Assembly (NCBI RefSeq): GCF_000238315.3 | Contig: NZ_CP011924.1 | Span: 2,024,501 to 2,088,500 of the forward strand | Source of the DNA: Pseudoalteromonas piscicida | GTDB taxonomy: Bacteria > Pseudomonadota > Gammaproteobacteria > Enterobacterales > Alteromonadaceae | Direction: 5' to 3' | Length of the DNA stretch: 64,000 nt | Part shown: positions 18,770 through 26,604 of the stretch, in pieces | Position numbering within the stretch: position 1 is the first letter of the stretch | Layout of the letters: every line of letters begins with the position of its first letter | Made by a program: the position numbers and the translations under genes | The notes under the pieces: model-generated | The model's database searches: none | The model's input: only the letters and a program-made list of their open reading frames with translations | Told to the model about the DNA's origin: nothing

Positions 18770-19879
18770 TTAAAATGACTCGTGCAACACCACCAGCGCA
18801 CTTAATTTGCTTGCGCCAAACGTCATCATTTTTTCAAAATCCGACCTTGCGATGGGCACTTGCTGGCAGTCGATAGGGTTTTGGTCGTCCTCGACATCAG
18901 GGTCATTAAGATATAAACACAACTCATCTAAGCCCGTAATAAGCACCCAATGCGGCGCTTTTTTACCGTTTAGCCGATAAGTGCTGATCAAAGCCAATAC
19001 CGCACTGCCCTGTAACAACCATTGTTCAACCTGTTCAAGCTTTACATCGGCTTGGTGAATAGCAATATCACGATATTCACACTCTTGACGGAATTGTTCA
19101 TGAACTAAGGTCATCACCTGCTTTTTCTGCGCGCTTCTCACGCCATCTAAAAATAGCGGGCCCGCCGTATTCACCATCACCTCTGCCGCAAAACCACGGC
19201 GCTCCGCAGCCAATGCCAATCCAAATGGGTGACAGCCGCCGTGACCTGCGGTCATAAAGATGGTGGTCGCTTCACGCCATATCTCAAGCTCTAAGGCCTG
19301 ATCGCCCATACAGCCTGGATCTATGCTTGCCATTGCCATCATCAGTGACGCCGGTCCGCAGGTAAAGTCTGTCGTTTGCTGATACCAAGGAGCCTGATGC
19401 AATACCGCCTTTTGCGACAGCTTACGCACGCATTTTTGCATTCTTAGCGCATCGTCATGATCCGCGTAATAGTTTTGATACTCGCCAAATACACGATAAC
19501 CCATGCGTTTATATAAGCCGATGGCCGCGTCATTGCGTTTAGCCACTTCTAAACGCATATATAACCAGCCCATTTCACCCGCTCTAACTTCAAGCTCAGA
19601 CATCAATTGGCGTGCGATCCCTTTACCTTGATGATGAGGCGATACCGCCAATGAATAAAGCCTTGCTAGCCGCGTCCCTTGGTGCAACCAAAGCAATCCA
19701 TAGCCCACAAGTTCCCCTGCTAACTTTGCAGTGAGCAGCAAGCTATGTTCAAAACTGATGTAATGCTTGAGTTGGCGGCGACTCAGTCTATCTGCACTAA
19801 AGCAGCTTTGCTCCAGTGCGTTAAGTGAATTCAAATCGTGCTGTGTCGCCTTTTCAAGCACCAACGCGGCTTGCAACAT
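18770..19879 (-). CDS. GNAT N-acetyltransferase fused to peptidase C39-like domain
   Basis: 369 residues. Residues 1-150 are a RimI-like GNAT domain with the acetyl-CoA motif VSPHHQGKGIARQLM. Residues 163-350 form a papain-like C39 peptidase domain with Cys174 (DFTCGPAS), His310 (KAPHWVLITG) and Asp326 (YLNDPD) as a plausible triad. This fusion occurs next to RLAN-type ATP-grasp genes, as described by Aravind and colleagues for amidoligase systems. Here the ATG overlaps the upstream stop by one base (TAATG), so the pair is coupled. Likely job: acylate or trim a peptide made by the ligase; the product is unknown. Confidence 0.88.
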   Translation of the reverse strand: MLQAALVLEKATQHDLNSLNALEQSCFSADRLSRRQLKHYISFEHSLLLTAKLAGELVGYGLLWLHQGTRLARLYSLAVSPHHQGKGIARQLMSELEVRAGEMGWLYMRLEVAKRNDAAIGLYKRMGYRVFGEYQNYYADHDDALRMQKCVRKLSQKAVLHQAPWYQQTTDFTCGPASLMMAMASIDPGCMGDQALELEIWREATTIFMTAGHGGCHPFGLALAAERRGFAAEVMVNTAGPLFLDGVRSAQKKQVMTLVHEQFRQECEYRDIAIHQADVKLEQVEQWLLQGSAVLALISTYRLNGKKAPHWVLITGLDELCLYLNDPDVEDDQNPIDCQQVPIARSDFEKMMTFGASKLSALVVLHESF

Positions 19880-21327
19880 TACTTTTTACCCCTCGCTTCA
19901 AGACGTCTTGAAAATTCAGACATCACTTGCATGTACAGCTCGTCACCGAGATATTTGTCTTCAACCCCTTGATCAATATTGGGGTTGTCGTTTACTTCAA
20001 GCACGTAGGCTTTGCCGTTGTGCTCTTTAATATCAATACCATACAAACCATTACCCACAACTGCCGCCGCTTTTAACGCCGCACGTAACACCGCTTTTGG
20101 CACTTCAAACGTTGGTAGCGTGTCAAACCCACCCGAGAAATTACGTTTTGACTCATGGTTATAGATTTGCCAATGGTTACGTGCCATATGGTAACGGCAT
20201 GCGTAGATCGCACGGCCATTTAATACCCCAATACGCCAGTCGTAGTCTGTGTATAAGTAAGCTTGCGCCAACACAATCGCAGAGACGCTCATCAGCTCTT
20301 GTAAACGCTCGCCAAGTTCTTCTTTGGTTTTTACTTTAAATACGCCTTTTGAGAACGAACTCTCAGGCATTTTAAGCACCATAGGTAGCGATAACTCAGC
20401 AATGAGTTTATCGATTATTTGTTCATTACACTGACTCACAAATCGCGTTTCTAAACTTGGCACCTTCTTGTAATTAAAGGCATCATGTAAAAACACCTTA
20501 TTACAACAGCGTAGGATCGAGCTTGGGTCATCAATTACGACTAAATCTTTTTGCTCTGCTTCTTGCGCAAGGCGATAAGTATGGTGGTCAATCGCTGTGG
20601 TTTCACGAATAAATAGCCCATCGTATTGGCCTAAGTTGTATAACTCAGCCGCTTCTAATGGATGGACTTTAATGCCAAGCTTTTCACCCGCTTTTACAAA
20701 GCGGCTGATCGCCCCTTTATTACTTGGCGGCAACTTTTCATCGTGGTCCACCAGCATCGCGATATCCCAGCGATACTTTTTGTGGCTCTTACGCTTGTTC
20801 CACTGAGTGGCATGCACATGACCTAATACTTGAGTACAAAACTCAAGCTGCGCCACCTGTAGAGTCGAAAAGTCTCGACGCTGCACCTGCACACGCACGC
20901 CTTTATCTTGCTGCTGTAATGTCACTTTTAGTAAAGGCGCTGGAAATTGCTGAAATAAATACGCCGCCAACTTACTAAACTCAGGCTGTTGGGTTTCGCC
21001 CATATAAATGATCAGCTCAGCGTCATCGGTAATCGCGATCCCACGCTTATCAAACCAGGCTTGCGATAAAAACAACGCATTATCGCCATCACGTAAACCG
21101 TTAATAACTTTTAGACTCGGAAGTACTTGGTGATTACGCGCTTCAGCAAGTAAAGAGCAGTAATAACCTTGGCTTAAATAACGGTCACAGTCACATAAAT
21201 TAATCACTCGAAGTTTTGATTCACCGAGCTTTGGGTACTCTTGCAAATACGTTTCAAACGTCACTACGTTATTTGCCAAAGGCAGTACATCTGCATTTTG
21301 ATCAACAACGAATAGAGTAGATAGCAT
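19879..21327 (-). CDS. RimK-like ATP-grasp ligase with RLAN N-terminal domain
   Basis: 482 residues. The N-terminal 180 residues fit the RimK-like ATP-grasp N-terminal (RLAN) domain (LREVINL-like segment RVINLCDCDRYLSQGYYCSLLAEAR). Residues 190-475 form the ATP-grasp catalytic part, with lysine-bearing VLKMPESSFSKGVFKV and the metal-binding end KAYVLEVNDNPNID. Family members ligate amino acids, often glutamate, to proteins or small peptides. It starts 8 bases after an AAGGAT box. No target peptide gene is seen next to the pair. Confidence 0.88.
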   Translation of the reverse strand: MLSTLFVVDQNADVLPLANNVVTFETYLQEYPKLGESKLRVINLCDCDRYLSQGYYCSLLAEARNHQVLPSLKVINGLRDGDNALFLSQAWFDKRGIAITDDAELIIYMGETQQPEFSKLAAYLFQQFPAPLLKVTLQQQDKGVRVQVQRRDFSTLQVAQLEFCTQVLGHVHATQWNKRKSHKKYRWDIAMLVDHDEKLPPSNKGAISRFVKAGEKLGIKVHPLEAAELYNLGQYDGLFIRETTAIDHHTYRLAQEAEQKDLVVIDDPSSILRCCNKVFLHDAFNYKKVPSLETRFVSQCNEQIIDKLIAELSLPMVLKMPESSFSKGVFKVKTKEELGERLQELMSVSAIVLAQAYLYTDYDWRIGVLNGRAIYACRYHMARNHWQIYNHESKRNFSGGFDTLPTFEVPKAVLRAALKAAAVVGNGLYGIDIKEHNGKAYVLEVNDNPNIDQGVEDKYLGDELYMQVMSEFSRRLEARGKK

Positions 21328-22057: not shown

Positions 22058-22139
22058 AGCTATAACAAGCGCCTTAAGAATGGGTTCTAAAGCTTGGCTG
22101 GCACTCATTCTTCGCTAACTTTAGCCAAAAAAGTTATGC
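22058..22139 (+). other. attC-like recombination site (incomplete or divergent)
   Basis: GCTATAACAAGCGCC opens it, as in Vibrio-type attC sites. AAGAATG and CATTCTT pair around a central AAAGCTTGGC that resembles the conserved AACGC-TGGC of such sites. It ends near GTTATGC. The usual GTTAGGY right core is not clear, so this may be a decayed site. Confidence 0.5.
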
Positions 22140-22175
22140 AATTTTAAACATGTCAATAGAAATTATTGGATATTT

Positions 22176-22816
22176 ATGAAATCAAGAGATTTAAAAACAA
22201 TATATGACGTTATTGTAACTGAATACATGATGACACATATCGGTGAAGGCCGATTCTTACACACATTTAAGCCGAAAACGACGAATACTTTATATCAGTT
22301 CGAAGCTAATGGTGTCGCAGAGATGGAAGAAGGCGAAAGGTACAACATCGGATTCCGTGAGGATAAAATGGTCGTAAGATCGTCGACTTGTCGTGTATTT
22401 CAAAATCAGACAGTGTAAACCCAATGTTATCCTATATGTATGCAAAAGAGTTTTCTAGAGCTAAACATACAGTTAACAAGCAGAAAAACGACGAAAGGGT
22501 TACACATAAAGGCACAGATGGTTATTTATGGGGTAAGAAATATGCGTGGCGTGAGTTTGGTCTGGTAATTTCAAAAGATGCTTTTTATGCCTACTTGAAG
22601 CAAATCGATCATCCTAAAGTGCCTTGTATAACGGTAAATCCAGATATGAAATTTAGTAATGAACCTTCAACAGCATACAAAGAAGAGGGATTAGCTGAAG
22701 CCATGGAACTGTTAATTACGATCGCTGAGAAAAAAACCAAAGCTCTATACAAATCACCTCATTATAGTAAACGTTTCTCTATTCGAGGCGTCGAAGCTAT
22801 TACGGACAAAAAATAG
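22176..22816 (+). pseudogene. Cassette gene of unknown function, broken by a 1-base deletion
   Basis: Two frames join into one convincing protein of about 213 residues if one A is restored in the AAAA run at 22365-22368. The frame then reads GERYNIGFREDK followed by NGRKIVDLSCISKSDSV and NPMLSYMYAKEFSRAKH without a break. As sequenced, the first part stops at residue 80 (TAA 22416-22418), and a second start at ATG 22424 could yield a 130-residue C-terminal piece. I do not recognise the family; it is soluble, basic at the C-terminus and has no signal peptide. It lies between two attC-like sites. The lesion may be real or a homopolymer sequencing error. Confidence 0.65.
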
Positions 22817-22937
22817 CATAACAACTGTTTGAGAGTGATTCGAAACGCATGGCTTTTTTGTTATGAGTTGCTCTGAGTGTTTAAGGTTGTATGCGGCGGC
22901 ATCAGTATTGCGTTACTCCGCCCCTAACAGGCGTTAG
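22815..22937 (+). other. attC site of integron type (Vibrio-like)
   Basis: The left arm CATAACAACTGTTTGAGAG mirrors the right arm CCCCTAACAGGCGTTAGG: reverse-complementing the latter gives CCTAACGCCTGTTAGGGG. Between them lies GTGATTCGAAACGCATGGC, nearly the central signature of Vibrio attC sites. Size is about 120 bases. It begins 2 bases after a gene stop, as expected at the end of a cassette. This is the best-preserved site of the cluster. Confidence 0.85.
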
Positions 22938-22984
22938 GAGTACAAATTAGTTGTTGTAAGTAAAATAGTAATAAAGGAAAAAAA

Positions 22985-23740
22985 ATGGCTTATAGATATG
23001 ATAGTGACTTAGAATTTTTAGGAGCGATTAAATCTGAAGATCTTAGTGACTTAGTTTATTGTTTAACTCATGATAAGGATGGTGAGGAGCGTTTTACTGA
23101 AGAGCTTACTCAGCATGCAAACTATAAAAGACACTATCCAGATCATTCGATGTACTGGGAAGAAATAGCTGCTGAAATACAATGTTTTGGTGCCAACACT
23201 TTTGTGACTCTCCTACGTGGTGGTAAAGGCGTCGAGTATAAGGAAGTGTTGACTGATGTCTGCGACAAGATGAAAGTAAATTACAATGAAAACTCTAGTG
23301 TTGAAAAGATTGAGCAAAATTTGCTAATGAAAATTCTCGAGGACGCTATTGAAAAAATGTCTCCGGAAGAGCTCAAAGAATTGGCATTGAGTACTGGTGT
23401 AGAAAATACTTCAGGTATAACGAAAGAAGCAATGGTTGGTCTTTTTCAGGCGGTATTCCGTGCCGGAGGTTTTAAGTCATACCAGCTAACACTAATTATC
23501 GTAAATGCCGTAGCTAAAGCTCTAATTGGTCGCGGCTTGACGTTCGCAGGTAATGCTGCGCTTACTAGAACAATGGCGGTTTTGACTGGACCAATTGGTT
23601 GGGCTATCACAGGCTTGTGGACAGCAGTTGATGTTGCCGGGGCTGCATACCGTGTAACAATCCCTGCCGTAATTCAAGTATCCGTTTTGAGGCAAAAACA
23701 TATATATGAAAAACAAGCTGAAGAAGTTGAGTTTTCGTAA
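22985..23740 (+). CDS. YaaW / UPF0174 family protein on a cassette
   Basis: 251 residues that align by eye with E. coli YaaW along the whole length: YDSDLEFLGAIKSEDLSDLV, LTHDKDGEERFTEEL, IAAEIQCFGANTFVTLLRG, VLTDVCDKMKVNYNE, and the C-terminal AYRVTIPAVIQVSVLRQ. The N-terminal part is DUF3944-like; a hydrophobic glycine-rich segment lies at about 180-225. Function of the family is unknown. An AAAGGAAA box precedes the ATG. It sits directly after a good attC site and is itself followed within 8 bases by another attC-like arm, so it forms a full cassette. Low GC sets it apart from the core genes. Confidence 0.85.
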   Translation: MAYRYDSDLEFLGAIKSEDLSDLVYCLTHDKDGEERFTEELTQHANYKRHYPDHSMYWEEIAAEIQCFGANTFVTLLRGGKGVEYKEVLTDVCDKMKVNYNENSSVEKIEQNLLMKILEDAIEKMSPEELKELALSTGVENTSGITKEAMVGLFQAVFRAGGFKSYQLTLIIVNAVAKALIGRGLTFAGNAALTRTMAVLTGPIGWAITGLWTAVDVAGAAYRVTIPAVIQVSVLRQKHIYEKQAEEVEFS

Positions 23741-23747
23741 GACGCAT

Positions 23748-23790
23748 CGATAACAACCTGTTCGAAATCAATTCACAAAGAGAGAGCAGA
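23748..23790 (+). other. Left arm of an attC-like site, interrupted by a repeat element
   Basis: CGATAACAACCTGTTCGAA starts just after the yaaW-like stop and matches the left arm of the preceding attC site. The expected right half is missing here: a TGACACCC repeat starts at 23791. A possible right end (GCGGCATTATGTGCTAGG) appears just before the next gene. Confidence 0.5.
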
Positions 23791-23882
23791 TGACACCCAT
23801 CACATATTTTCACCGATACTGGGAAGGTACTTCAAAGTTGAAAATGTTATCTTTTTGATACACAAACTTTAGGTGGGTGTCA
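23791..23882. repeat. TGACACCC/GGGTGTCA repeat, copy A (92 bp)
   Basis: Ends are TGACACCCA and TGGGTGTCA, imperfect terminal inverted repeats. Copies A and D share most of their interior (ATCACATATTTT..CCGATAC, CTTCAAAGTTGAA, ACACAAACTTTAGG). Too small to code for anything; resembles a MITE or REP-type element. Confidence 0.75.
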
Positions 23883-23952
23883 GCACAAACTTTAACGATT
23901 AGTCTTCAATAAAATTAGCCGTATATTGCGGCATTATGTGCTAGGAGGTCAA

Positions 23953-24330
23953 ATGAGCAAATATGGAGATGTTGCTGTAGGAGCTACTCATATCGCTCAA
24001 ACTGGAGTCTGTCCAGTTGAAGCTTGGAATACAGCCGCAGAAAAAGAGTTCAAGGACAGTACTGCTTCCATTAAAAAAGGATGTCCAAAAAACGCTTTTC
24101 TAGGTTTAGCTGAAAATGGCTTTGTCGTCGGTGTGCCCAAAGGAAGCTATACAAAATCAGTTTTAAATAAACAGTATGCTTTAAGGGCTGTTAGGCTGTT
24201 AAACGAAAAGCCAGATATGCAAAATGACATCAAAAAACTTTGGATTCAGTCATGTGGCTCTGAGTCTAAAGTTCATAATAGCCAAATGGATGTTGTTGTG
24301 TCGTTGTGGTCTCAAGGATTACTGGAGTAA
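23953..24330 (+). CDS. DUF6979 family protein on a cassette
   Basis: 125 residues. ATG was placed at MSKYGDVAVGA because a strong AGGAGG box lies just upstream; a longer frame with 9 more residues overlaps that box. Conserved blocks fit DUF6979: PVEAWNTAAEKEF, IKKGCPKNAFLGLAENGFVVGVP, YALRAVRLLNEKP and SKVHNSQMDVVVSLWSQGLL. This is a small soluble family known from phages, plasmids and genomic islands, with no proven function. It is flanked on both sides by TGACACCC repeats and sits inside the attC cluster. Confidence 0.75.
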   Translation: MSKYGDVAVGATHIAQTGVCPVEAWNTAAEKEFKDSTASIKKGCPKNAFLGLAENGFVVGVPKGSYTKSVLNKQYALRAVRLLNEKPDMQNDIKKLWIQSCGSESKVHNSQMDVVVSLWSQGLLE

Positions 24331-24363
24331 GCACATGGAGTCGATCATGAAGTCTGGAGTCAA

Positions 24364-24445
24364 TGATACCCATCACTACGTTTCAGTATTAAAACTTAAA
24401 TGACATTTTTAGAACATTAGAACACCCCAATTTGAGGTGGGTGTA
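24364..24445. repeat. TGACACCC repeat, copy B (82 bp)
   Basis: Starts TGATACCCATCAC and ends GGTGGGTGTAA. The interior (ACGTTTCAGTATTAAAACTT) matches copy E. Followed by GCGATTTA, the same right flank as copies D and E. Confidence 0.7.
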
Positions 24446-24471
24446 AGCGATTTAGGATTTAGTGGAATAAG

Positions 24472-24544
24472 TGACACCCCCTATTATTTGTATCTATACT
24501 GGCAAAGTGAGATTAAAAAGCACGCAAATTTAAGGTGGGTGTCA
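24472..24544. repeat. TGACACCC repeat, copy C (73 bp)
   Basis: Starts TGACACCCC and ends GGTGGGTGTCA. The interior is different from the other copies, so conservation rests on the ends. Confidence 0.6.
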
Positions 24545-24558
24545 GTACAAGCTTTAGA

Positions 24559-24650
24559 TGACATCCATCACATATTTTTGCCGATACAGGGAGGGCACTT
24601 CAAAGTTGAAGCTGTCATCTTTTGAATACACAAACTTTAGGTGGGTGTCA
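24559..24650. repeat. TGACACCC repeat, copy D (92 bp)
   Basis: Starts TGACATCCATCACATATTTT and ends GGTGGGTGTCA followed by GCGATTTA. It is the same length as copy A and closely similar throughout. Between D and the next gene (24651-24857) I see no gene. A short hairpin (CGAGC/GCTCG, about 24789-24809) is followed by GTTATGTG, a possible decayed attC end. Confidence 0.75.
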
Positions 24651-24857
24651 GCGATTTAAGCGATTTATTCAACAGAGACCAACCTTATAAGACATAGCAA
24701 AAAAATGACAGTGACGTTTAGAGTAAACAATTGAACCAAGCACGGAACTCGGCTAAGGTTGATACCACAATGCAAAACGTATTAAAAACGAGCAATTCCA
24801 CAGGCTCGTTATGTGTAAGTGTTTTGGGGTCATTTATTAAAACTAAAGGGAGTTGTT

Positions 24858-25298
24858 ATGAAAGGTCAAATTAGTCTTGCTGATTTTATTAGTGAAGTAA
24901 AAAAGGAATTGGTTGAGGCTGTAAAAAACAAAAAAGAAGACGATGATCCATTTTTTACGCTTAATGCAGTTGAGCTTCAAACAGAGTTTGGATTAAAGGC
25001 CGAAGCAAGTGGCGGGTTTAAATTTTTTGTCGATTTATCGGCCAAAACCGAAGCAAATCAAAGACACTGTGTCACTCTTAAGTTTTCGCCAATACGACAG
25101 TCGATAAATCCCTCTTTACTTAGTGGTGGAGGAGGAAATAGCATCACAGCCCACGGCGATATAACTGTATCAACTCCAGAACAAGCAGTTGCAATTCGGC
25201 AATATCTGCAAGCACACCCTGAAGTTATAGATCCAGATGGTATAAATTTTCATGTTGTTACTATGCCGGTAGCTGGGAAATTAGAGGGTGAAGCGTAA
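24858..25298 (+). CDS. Trypco2-domain protein on a cassette
   Basis: 146 residues. The start at MKGQISLADF has AAGGGAG upstream. Residues 1-80 match the trypsin-co-occurring domain 2 pattern: helix LADFISEVKKELVEAVKN, then strands LNAVELQTEFGLKAEASGGF and a HCVTLKFSPI end. Trypco domains were defined in predicted NTP-dependent conflict systems with trypsin or caspase effectors (Aravind group). Here the domain stands alone, followed by a Gly-rich linker and a C-terminal segment (ITVSTPEQAVAIRQYLQAHP). An attC-like arm starts 2 bases after the stop. A defence role is inferred from the family only. Confidence 0.75.
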   Translation: MKGQISLADFISEVKKELVEAVKNKKEDDDPFFTLNAVELQTEFGLKAEASGGFKFFVDLSAKTEANQRHCVTLKFSPIRQSINPSLLSGGGGNSITAHGDITVSTPEQAVAIRQYLQAHPEVIDPDGINFHVVTMPVAGKLEGEA

Positions 25299-25300
25299 TT

Positions 25301-25345
25301 GCATATAACGAGAGACTATGGCGTCAATAACTGACTTTATGCTTT
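25301..25345 (+). other. attC-like arm after the trypco2 gene
   Basis: GCATATAACGAG lies directly after the stop codon, as at the other cassettes. GCATA pairs with TATGC 40 bases further on. No full right core was found, so the site is probably decayed. Confidence 0.4.
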
Positions 25346-25391
25346 GCCGATTGCGACATGAAACGCATTGCTTATGAACAGAGCGAAAAGA

Positions 25392-25466
25392 TGACACCTA
25401 TCACTACGTTTCAGTATTAAAACTTAAGTGGCATTTTTAGAACACGTCGATCTGAGGTGGGTGTCA
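25392..25466. repeat. TGACACCC repeat, copy E (75 bp)
   Basis: Starts TGACACCTATCACTACGTTT and ends GGTGGGTGTCA followed by GCGATTTA. Close to copy B except for a 7-base deletion. Confidence 0.7.
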
Positions 25467-25549
25467 GCGATTTATTTCTCGGCTTAGTAGAAAGGGAATG
25501 AAAAAGTGCTAACAAGCCAAGTCAGGAGTATTCGTAAATAGGAAATCGA

Positions 25550-25635: not shown

Positions 25636-26604
25636 TCACTTTAGCTTTGACGGTGGTTTCCCATACCATTTTAAACAAACTTTATTGAGCGCACTTTGTT
25701 CTGTAAAACCGAGTGCGTCTACAATATCGAGTAACCTTGTGTTGCCGATGAGTTGTTCAAATCTATGCTTTCGCTCTCGGTCGAGTAAGGCTCTAAAGCT
25801 GGTGTGTTGTGTTTTTAGCTTACGCTGCATCGAACGCACACTCATGTTTAATGCCTTAGCAATACTTGCTTGGTTGACTCCAGTCAGTGAGTGCTTTGCC
25901 GCAAGTAAATTGGCAACACGCGTTTTTAAATCATGATTATCGCAGAGCGCTGATACGCTTTTTGCAACCGCTTGCTCAATATGTTCGTGCATTAGGCTGT
26001 CGACGGTAGCGACTGGCATGGTAAGAAAATCTAACGGAAACGACAGTGCATTTTCAGGGCAATTTTATGATACGGGGCAACCAAACCAAGTTTGCAACCG
26101 CTGTAATTCTAGGTCACACACGCTAAAGCTAAGCTGGAGTTGGTTAGGCGATAAAGTTGATCGCAAAAGCTGCCGTGCAGCGCTCACCCAAGCGGTCATA
26201 TTACGCAAAATGGCTTGCTTACCCAGCGGGGTTTTTGGTTGCCAAGTTAACTTGGCATTGTCGCTATCACTTGTGAATACGGCGAGGCCAATATCAGCAA
26301 CAATGGCGTCGTAATGCAATAATGAGGTAATAGCCTGCTGCAAGTCTTTACTGGTTTCGACCAAGTAACCAAGCGCCCCATAGTCATGCAGCTGAATGGC
26401 TTTACCCAGCTCAAAGCCAATTAGGGGATCGCCGCTTAACTCCTGCCCTACCTCAAGCAACCGCTCGTACTCAATGAGTGTTGCACGTTCAGGCCGTGAC
26501 GCTACTAGCTCAGCAAACTCGCCTTGCAGTCTCTTGTTATCGGTAAAACGGTCATGGAGATATACCCACGCACTATAAAAATATACAAACGAAGTGGAGT
26601 GCAT
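25636..26604 (-). pseudogene. AraC-family regulator interrupted by one in-frame stop
   Basis: One reading frame of about 321 residues is cut by TAA at 26065-26067. The N-terminal part (179 residues) is an Arabinose_bd-like sensor domain (DPLIGFELGKAIQLHDYGAL). After the stop the same frame continues NCPENALSFPLDF and then the AraC helix-turn-helix pair (ASIAKALNMSVRSMQRKL, IVDALGFTEQSALNKV). Family pattern suggests a Tyr codon stood where TAA is. The truncated product would have no DNA-binding domain. An internal ATG could restart the HTH half (127 residues). It is divergent from the hydroxylase, 121 bases away, its likely target. Confidence 0.85.

Follow-up and report, generated by a model that had tools for sequence, protein, structure and literature searches.

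A segment of the Pseudoalteromonas piscicida genome carries what is probably a minimal, decaying cluster of attC sites lacking an integron-integrase (CALIN), in which the attC is of the Vibrio type. The window, the whole 64-kb stretch that was analysed (C1:2024501-2088500 of a 5.49 Mb genome in two contigs, C1 and C2), holds this cluster, and positions without a contig name refer to the window. The assignment follows from the presence of one strong and one decayed attC site together with integrase genes that are found only elsewhere, and the cluster is of a known kind. We consider it probable that the interval 22061-25303 represents a few integron cassettes, put there by an integrase encoded elsewhere and since decayed, into which short derivatives of a transposon of the RAYT (REP-associated tyrosine transposase; REP, repetitive extragenic palindrome) type have likely inserted. 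The association between RAYT-like genes and integrons described below is a lead worth following.

attC sites in the window

The attC sites were evaluated with two covariance models. Training sites were collected by applying pairing rules to intI-adjacent stretches of other genomes of the genus and by adding genus BLAST matches of the window site, and were sorted into two alignments, A1 with 16 long sites and A2 with 36 short sites, from which models R1 and R2, respectively, were built. The window's own genome contributes no sequence to either model, and part of A1 was recruited by similarity to the window attC itself. The consensus fold of A1 has 31 pairs, of which 11 are changed on both sides, with pairing kept, in at least one sequence. 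As a positive control, R1 was run on 16 kb of a plasmid array from Vibrio alginolyticus; of its 12 matches there, 11 share a strand and score 88-147 bits.

Two sites emerge from these searches (Table 1). First, the top R1 match in the whole genome lies at 22817-22938 (90.3 bits, E=4.4e-24), with the runner-up in the window reaching only 11.7 bits. The site begins immediately after the stop codon of the upstream open reading frame (ORF), has AACGCATGGC at its centre, and retains 26 of the 31 consensus pairs, with three single-base deletions and one insertion relative to the consensus; its score falls at the low end of the V. alginolyticus range. BLAST finds stretches related to it at 73-83% identity in many genomes of the genus, and a search with 22800-22960 matches 115 plasmid records, of which 90 are from Vibrio. 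The attC sites of Vibrio superintegrons (about 124 nt, known as VCR) are alike in length and centre, share 75-84% identity in the sites listed and are recovered by the same model; the window site departs from them in its Pseudoalteromonas host, its indels and its incomplete pairing. Secondly, R2 matches 22061-22160 with 24.4 bits (E=0.0017 window-wide), and the 5′ part of this site is 76-90% identical over 31-76 nt to integron-array stretches, several of which are attC sites.

The original prediction had named four attC-like sites or arms in a single direction, and that common direction is borne out. The best of them, placed at 22815-22937 with the same centre, is confirmed with a shift of its ends to 22817-22938, the site at 22061-22160 is weak, and the other two arms are unsupported by profile search. 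The arm at 23750, separated by 8 bases from the stop of the 251-aa ORF, is at chance level (E=1.8), and that at 25303, 4 bases past the stop of the Trypco2 ORF, is absent from the profile-search matches at E≤20. Detected attC sites thus span 22061-22938, and the remainder of 22058-25345 has no significant attC; an Rfam scan of the window at gathering thresholds gave no match. The two arms at chance level speak for the attC resemblance being fortuitous, an explanation that the score at 22817-22938 and its margin over the next R1 match refute for that site and that we regard as vanishingly improbable overall. The covariance-model check put forward with the prediction thus returned a match at the claimed site, and further matches were found elsewhere in the genome.

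The arrangement also agrees with the CALIN that had been predicted, in that one strong and one weak attC lie on the same strand 0.7 kb apart and the window has no intI match. Compared with CALINs as described in an excerpt of PMC9892861, the cluster is alike in its attC predictions, of which two or more share a strand within 3 kb, in the lack of a neighbouring intI and in its small genes, which are unknown or defence-like. It is unlike them in that one of its two sites is weak and in its RAYT-type repeats, and its sites were called by our own models R1 and R2 rather than by HattCI or IntegronFinder.

Integrases, other attC sites and the origin of the cluster

Searches with TIGR02249 and PF00589 gave no integrase match inside the window at E≤0.001. 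Full-length IntI genes are located at C1:3007007 (462 bits) and C1:1141957 (394 bits), and a truncated intI is present on C2 (residues 1-186 of 315, with one stop), in keeping with the earlier proposal that the integrase lies elsewhere. Upstream of the second IntI there is a sequence that, by eye, is one base off the Shewanella-type attI quoted in an excerpt of PMC9892861. Genome-wide, with 150 candidates scored per model, 16 R2 and five R1 matches were obtained at E≤1. Seven of the R2 matches (C1:3000892-3006405) adjoin the full-length IntI at 3007007, four are at C1:1980980-1987304, and all others are single or paired. The IntI-linked array is mainly of the R2 class, unlike the window attC.

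A sample of ten loci from nine sibling genomes was compared over the same interval, with both flanks together in seven loci; contig ends interrupt the interval in two genomes, one having its flanks on two contigs and the other its left flank only. None of the four window genes has a BLAST match at the sibling loci, and no attC was found in the ten loci at E≤1. The sibling intervals hold other ORFs, some common to several siblings, and one (L076) has no ORF of at least 60 aa. Ends of the same REP-type repeats occur at least once in nine of the ten loci, L084 having none, and the left breakpoints vary among siblings (21595, 21683, 21700 and 21991). We note that one sibling interval (L083) contains two neighbouring ORFs (346 and 224 aa), which we take to be of phosphoribosyltransferase and NADAR types, respectively, and which may be a defence pair at the same hotspot.

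These comparisons bear on how the cluster arose. It would be a remnant of a complete integron if one had stood at this interval and lost its integrase, and such loss does occur in the clade, as RAYT-like copies abut truncated intI elsewhere (on C2, and as fragments at L127, L136 and L142). However, the window has no intI match, the ten sibling loci have no attC, and the attC class differs from that of most of the IntI-linked array, so that this origin is unlikely; the same observations give no support to the earlier proposal that the cluster is a fragment of a superintegron. Alternatively, the interval could be a general insertion hotspot that gains unrelated mobile DNA and undergoes homologous exchange between REP-type repeats, the attC having arrived with an incoming fragment and not through an integrase. 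The differing sibling contents, the repeat ends in nine loci free of attC, and the several left breakpoints are all as expected for a hotspot, but the end of gene 1 coincides with the start of the attC in the manner of a cassette, and relatives of gene 2 are attC-flanked at two other loci. We hold this alternative to be possible, though clearly the less probable one.

In the deposition that we favour, IntI would place cassettes at an ectopic site by recombination of attC, whose folded bottom strand is the substrate, and the cassette order would then freeze while the attC sites decay. It is favoured by the R1 match at 22817-22938, by a full-length IntI with its own attC array on the same chromosome, by the other contents that siblings have between the same flanks, by the single ORF that a relative has in place of the split gene 1, and by the attC beside two relatives of gene 2. 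Several observations weigh against it. The match at 22061-22160 falls short of genome-wide significance (E=0.14), leaving a single strong attC; genes 3 and 4 have no attC support for a cassette origin; no ectopic target sequence was identified; and the repeats are tied to RAYT through shared ends only. Moreover, when the bottom strand of 22817-22938 is folded alone the attC hairpin is not the top structure (z=-1.89), unlike the related site L035 of another genome, in which it is the best fold, and the window copy may therefore be dead. Single-strand folding was discarded as proof of attC, being unfavourable to the window copy and a weak test, since two related sites on the correct strand gave z values of just -0.75 and -0.88.

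REP-type elements and the RAYT-like gene

Five short elements, E1-E5, are interspersed with the genes to the right of the attC sites. They are 77-99 bp each, lie in one direction, and have ends resembling TGACACCC and GGTGGGTGTCA. The end motif (at most one mismatch) occurs seven times in the window, where 0.57 occurrences are expected. A 19-mer, GGTGGGTGTCAGCGATTTA, occurs 16 times in the genome with up to two mismatches and is present in 22 of 108 genomes of the genus, and it flanks a gene for a 323-aa transposase. This gene has seven matches in the genome and is found in 92 of the 108 (E≤1e-60). Its match to the NCBIfam model REP_Tyr_transpos is partial and below the cut-off (35.7 bits against 80), for which reason we class it only as RAYT-like; it has no Pfam match, and a PF01797 search did not find it. 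By eye, its borders at 26 loci carry GACACCC on the left in 23 and GGGTGTC on the right in 18, and at L137-L140 the ends are partly interrupted by another sequence. E4 and the transposase copy next to intI on C2 are identical over 19 nt at their ends, the right end in the case of E4. The idea that E1 inserted into a single attC was rejected, as the flanking arms are not significant.

The REPtron/RAYT (TnpAREP) systems in an excerpt of PMC8266576 offer a comparison, with a single-strand transposase gene between inverted REP-type ends and short elements with paired ends. The present gene differs in scoring below the REP_Tyr_transpos cut-off and in having many copies in the manner of an insertion sequence, and its repeats are few genome-wide but many near integrons. 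E1-E5 share their ends with the RAYT-like gene and may be REPIN-type elements, which are short, carry both transposon ends and are mobilised in trans; they may be internally deleted RAYT derivatives that would have been moved by single-strand transposition. A further array of interest lies at C1:1398111-1399436 (L099:8111-9436), where a 110-bp unit is present 12 times (98% matches), every copy containing the transposon end GGTGGGTGTCATC, with a RAYT-like gene to one side of the array and an attC to the other.

Association of RAYT-like genes with integrons

Four of the seven RAYT-like copies in the genome are within 4 kb of an attC or intI: on C2 a copy abuts the truncated intI, another lies among the attC sites of the IntI array, a third has the second IntI at a distance of 3 kb, and a fourth has an attC at 1.8 kb. 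The C2 copy (C2:893757-894725) adjoins the intI match ending at 894819, and in the surrounding locus L025 (C2:893757-895376) a RAYT-like end motif is 4 bp from the end of the truncated match. The three remaining copies have no attC (E<0.01) nearer than 127 kb. When a tandem pair is counted as one, four of six copies are associated (binomial P about 1e-5 at 6 kb), the test being post hoc, made after the pattern had been seen.

The pattern recurs in four sibling genomes, from which 20 near-complete RAYT copies were picked among 29 matches. For twelve (L126, L127, L128, L131, L134, L136, L137, L138, L139, L140, L142 and L144), an attC (E≤1e-3) or intI fragment lies no more than about 6 kb away, and for eight there is none; L143 (attC E=0.059) was scored as a miss and L136 was scored through intI fragments only. 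No attC or intI fragment was found in 20 arbitrary control regions even at E≤0.5 (one-sided Fisher P=2.3e-5), these controls being hand-picked round coordinates and not other insertion sequences. Of nine non-IntI PF00589 matches in the P. piscicida genome, one was counted by hand as having an attC (E<0.01) no more than 6 kb away; another, at C1:1271500, is 4.4 kb from a weak attC (E=0.043) and abuts a RAYT copy counted as a miss.

Among the 700-bp flanks of 26 RAYT copies there is no pair with long common sequence on both sides, and the insertions therefore look mostly like independent events. At L137-L140, all in one sibling genome, a single sequence abuts the REP ends (99.5-100% identity over 640-700 bp), and L137 and L139 additionally share 94 nt at 80% on the opposite side. 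We take the abutting sequence to be an IS110/IS1111-type element, which looks as if it uses the REP ends as a target. The IntI array at 3007007 contains a duplicated attC, with 952-bp spacing and a transposon end at 65 bp from the site, which fits hitch-hiking within a cassette.

The association may reflect targeting of integrons, travel in cassettes, or shared variable DNA, including a clustering of all mobile DNA. We speculate, with more doubt than conviction, that the RAYT-type family of Pseudoalteromonas prefers integrons, inserting between neighbouring attC sites and into intI itself, breaking integrases, seeding short REP-bounded elements among the cassettes and thereby making CALINs. 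Among the papers listed from one open library on RAYT or IS200 together with integrons and on CALINs or chromosomal integrons in Pseudoalteromonas, no title or abstract opening describes a RAYT-integron association. A single case from another lineage, in an excerpt of PMC7923331, is that of the IS200/605 element ISHahl1, which adjoins a Halorhodospira CALIN; it is alike in placing a single-strand transposon beside a CALIN, and unlike the Pseudoalteromonas association, which covers many copies and several genomes.

Orientation and replication

Integron-linked RAYT copies oppose the direction of the array in 14 of 16 cases (hand-read, with the direction inferred from intI for L023, L025 and L136). 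We rejected this as proof of a targeting of the attC bottom strand by RAYT, because replication direction accounts for the bias: RAYT copies are mostly anti-leading (21 of 27) even away from integrons (7 of 11, including L133, where the skew is near zero), and the arrays are mostly co-leading (14 of 16, hand-read). GC skew at the window makes the minus strand the leading strand, and as the window attC is on the plus strand its bottom strand should be on the lagging-strand template, an orientation that raised excision in Vibrio cholerae (excerpt of PMC11023631). The other C1 attC sites at E<0.01 (1399822, 1855911-1857181, 1980980-1987304, 2324316 and 3000892-3006405) are on the minus strand with negative skew, and among matches at this threshold the window attC should be the only C1 site whose recombinogenic strand is on the lagging-strand template. 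Ten stretches of C2 were sampled, and each has a positive or near-zero GC skew, as if the contig were replicated unidirectionally.

Cassette genes, flanks and a conserved element

The features of the interval are listed in Table 1. The two ORFs of gene 1 overlap, and a relative in another genome is a single 215-aa ORF with 68% DNA identity; no Pfam or NCBIfam match to gene 1 was found at E≤0.1. Relatives of gene 2 with up to 85% identity are present in Photobacterium, Endozoicomonas and others, and an attC adjoins them in two of 26 loci tested (41 found). The AraC-type regulator of the right flank has its N- and C-terminal domains on separate ORFs and is possibly a broken gene.

Table 1. Features of the cassette interval and its flanks, in window coordinates.
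Feature	Position	Strand	Basis or remark
Left flank, RimK-like ATP-grasp gene, conserved in siblings	19879..21327	-	Domain search, sibling comparison
Decayed attC (100-nt class), 3′ arm lost	22061..22160	+	R2 covariance match, BLAST of 5′ part
Cassette gene 1, split by frame change	22176..22816	+	ORFs 22176-22418 and 22388-22816 overlap
attC, long Vibrio-type class, somewhat diverged	22817..22938	+	R1 covariance match, BLAST
Cassette gene 2, 251 aa, DUF3944 and Ubiq_cyt_C_chap	22985..23740	+	Top PADLOC model JukA (model match)
attC-like 5′ arm after gene 2 stop	23749..23765	+	Statistically unsupported
REP-type element E1, ends TGACACCC...GGTGGGTGTCA	23788..23886	-	Strand by likeness to transposase-gene ends
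Gene 3, DUF6979	23953..24330	+	PF22399, 151.5 bits (ORF scored from 23926)
REP-type element E2	24362..24450	-	Shared ends
REP-type element E3	24471..24547	-	Shared ends
REP-type element E4	24556..24652	-	Shared ends
Conserved element, ends CTCGTTATG	24719..24815	+	BLAST, many genus genomes
Gene 4, Trypsin-co-occurring domain 2 (Trypco2)	24858..25298	+	PF19631, 43.5 bits (ORF scored from 24819)
attC-like 5′ part	25303..25385	+	No profile support; two siblings match at 86% over 70 nt in the corresponding position
REP-type element E5	25390..25470	-	Shared ends
Right flank, AraC-type regulator, two ORFs, conserved in siblings	25636..26604	-	Domain search, sibling comparison

The conserved element to the left of gene 4 has, by eye, the pattern GATTGAAYCAAAATAGGAACTCGGCTATGGTT...ACGAG-N12-CTCGTTA, and relatives with about 72-90% identity occur in dozens of genomes of the genus, upstream of unrelated ORFs. 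In five loci (L110, L118, L119, L123 and L125) such an element is followed by an ORF and then an attC, all on the same strand. It looks like a cassette boundary with a predicted promoter, judging from -35 and -10 sequences read by eye, and the promoter cassettes of Vibrio in an excerpt of PMC11014356 are offered as a comparison. It was discarded as an attI of the genome's own IntI, since it was not seen by eye upstream of the three intI genes and BLAST gave no match there.

Biological significance

The CALIN is a useful case of cassettes outside an integron, because its genome has IntI genes of its own and several further attC sites scattered about, and because it should be the only one among the C1 attC matches at E<0.01 with its recombinogenic strand on the lagging-strand template. 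If the association of RAYT with integrons proves true against other insertion sequences, RAYT would be an agent that turns integrons into CALINs, linking two single-strand DNA systems.

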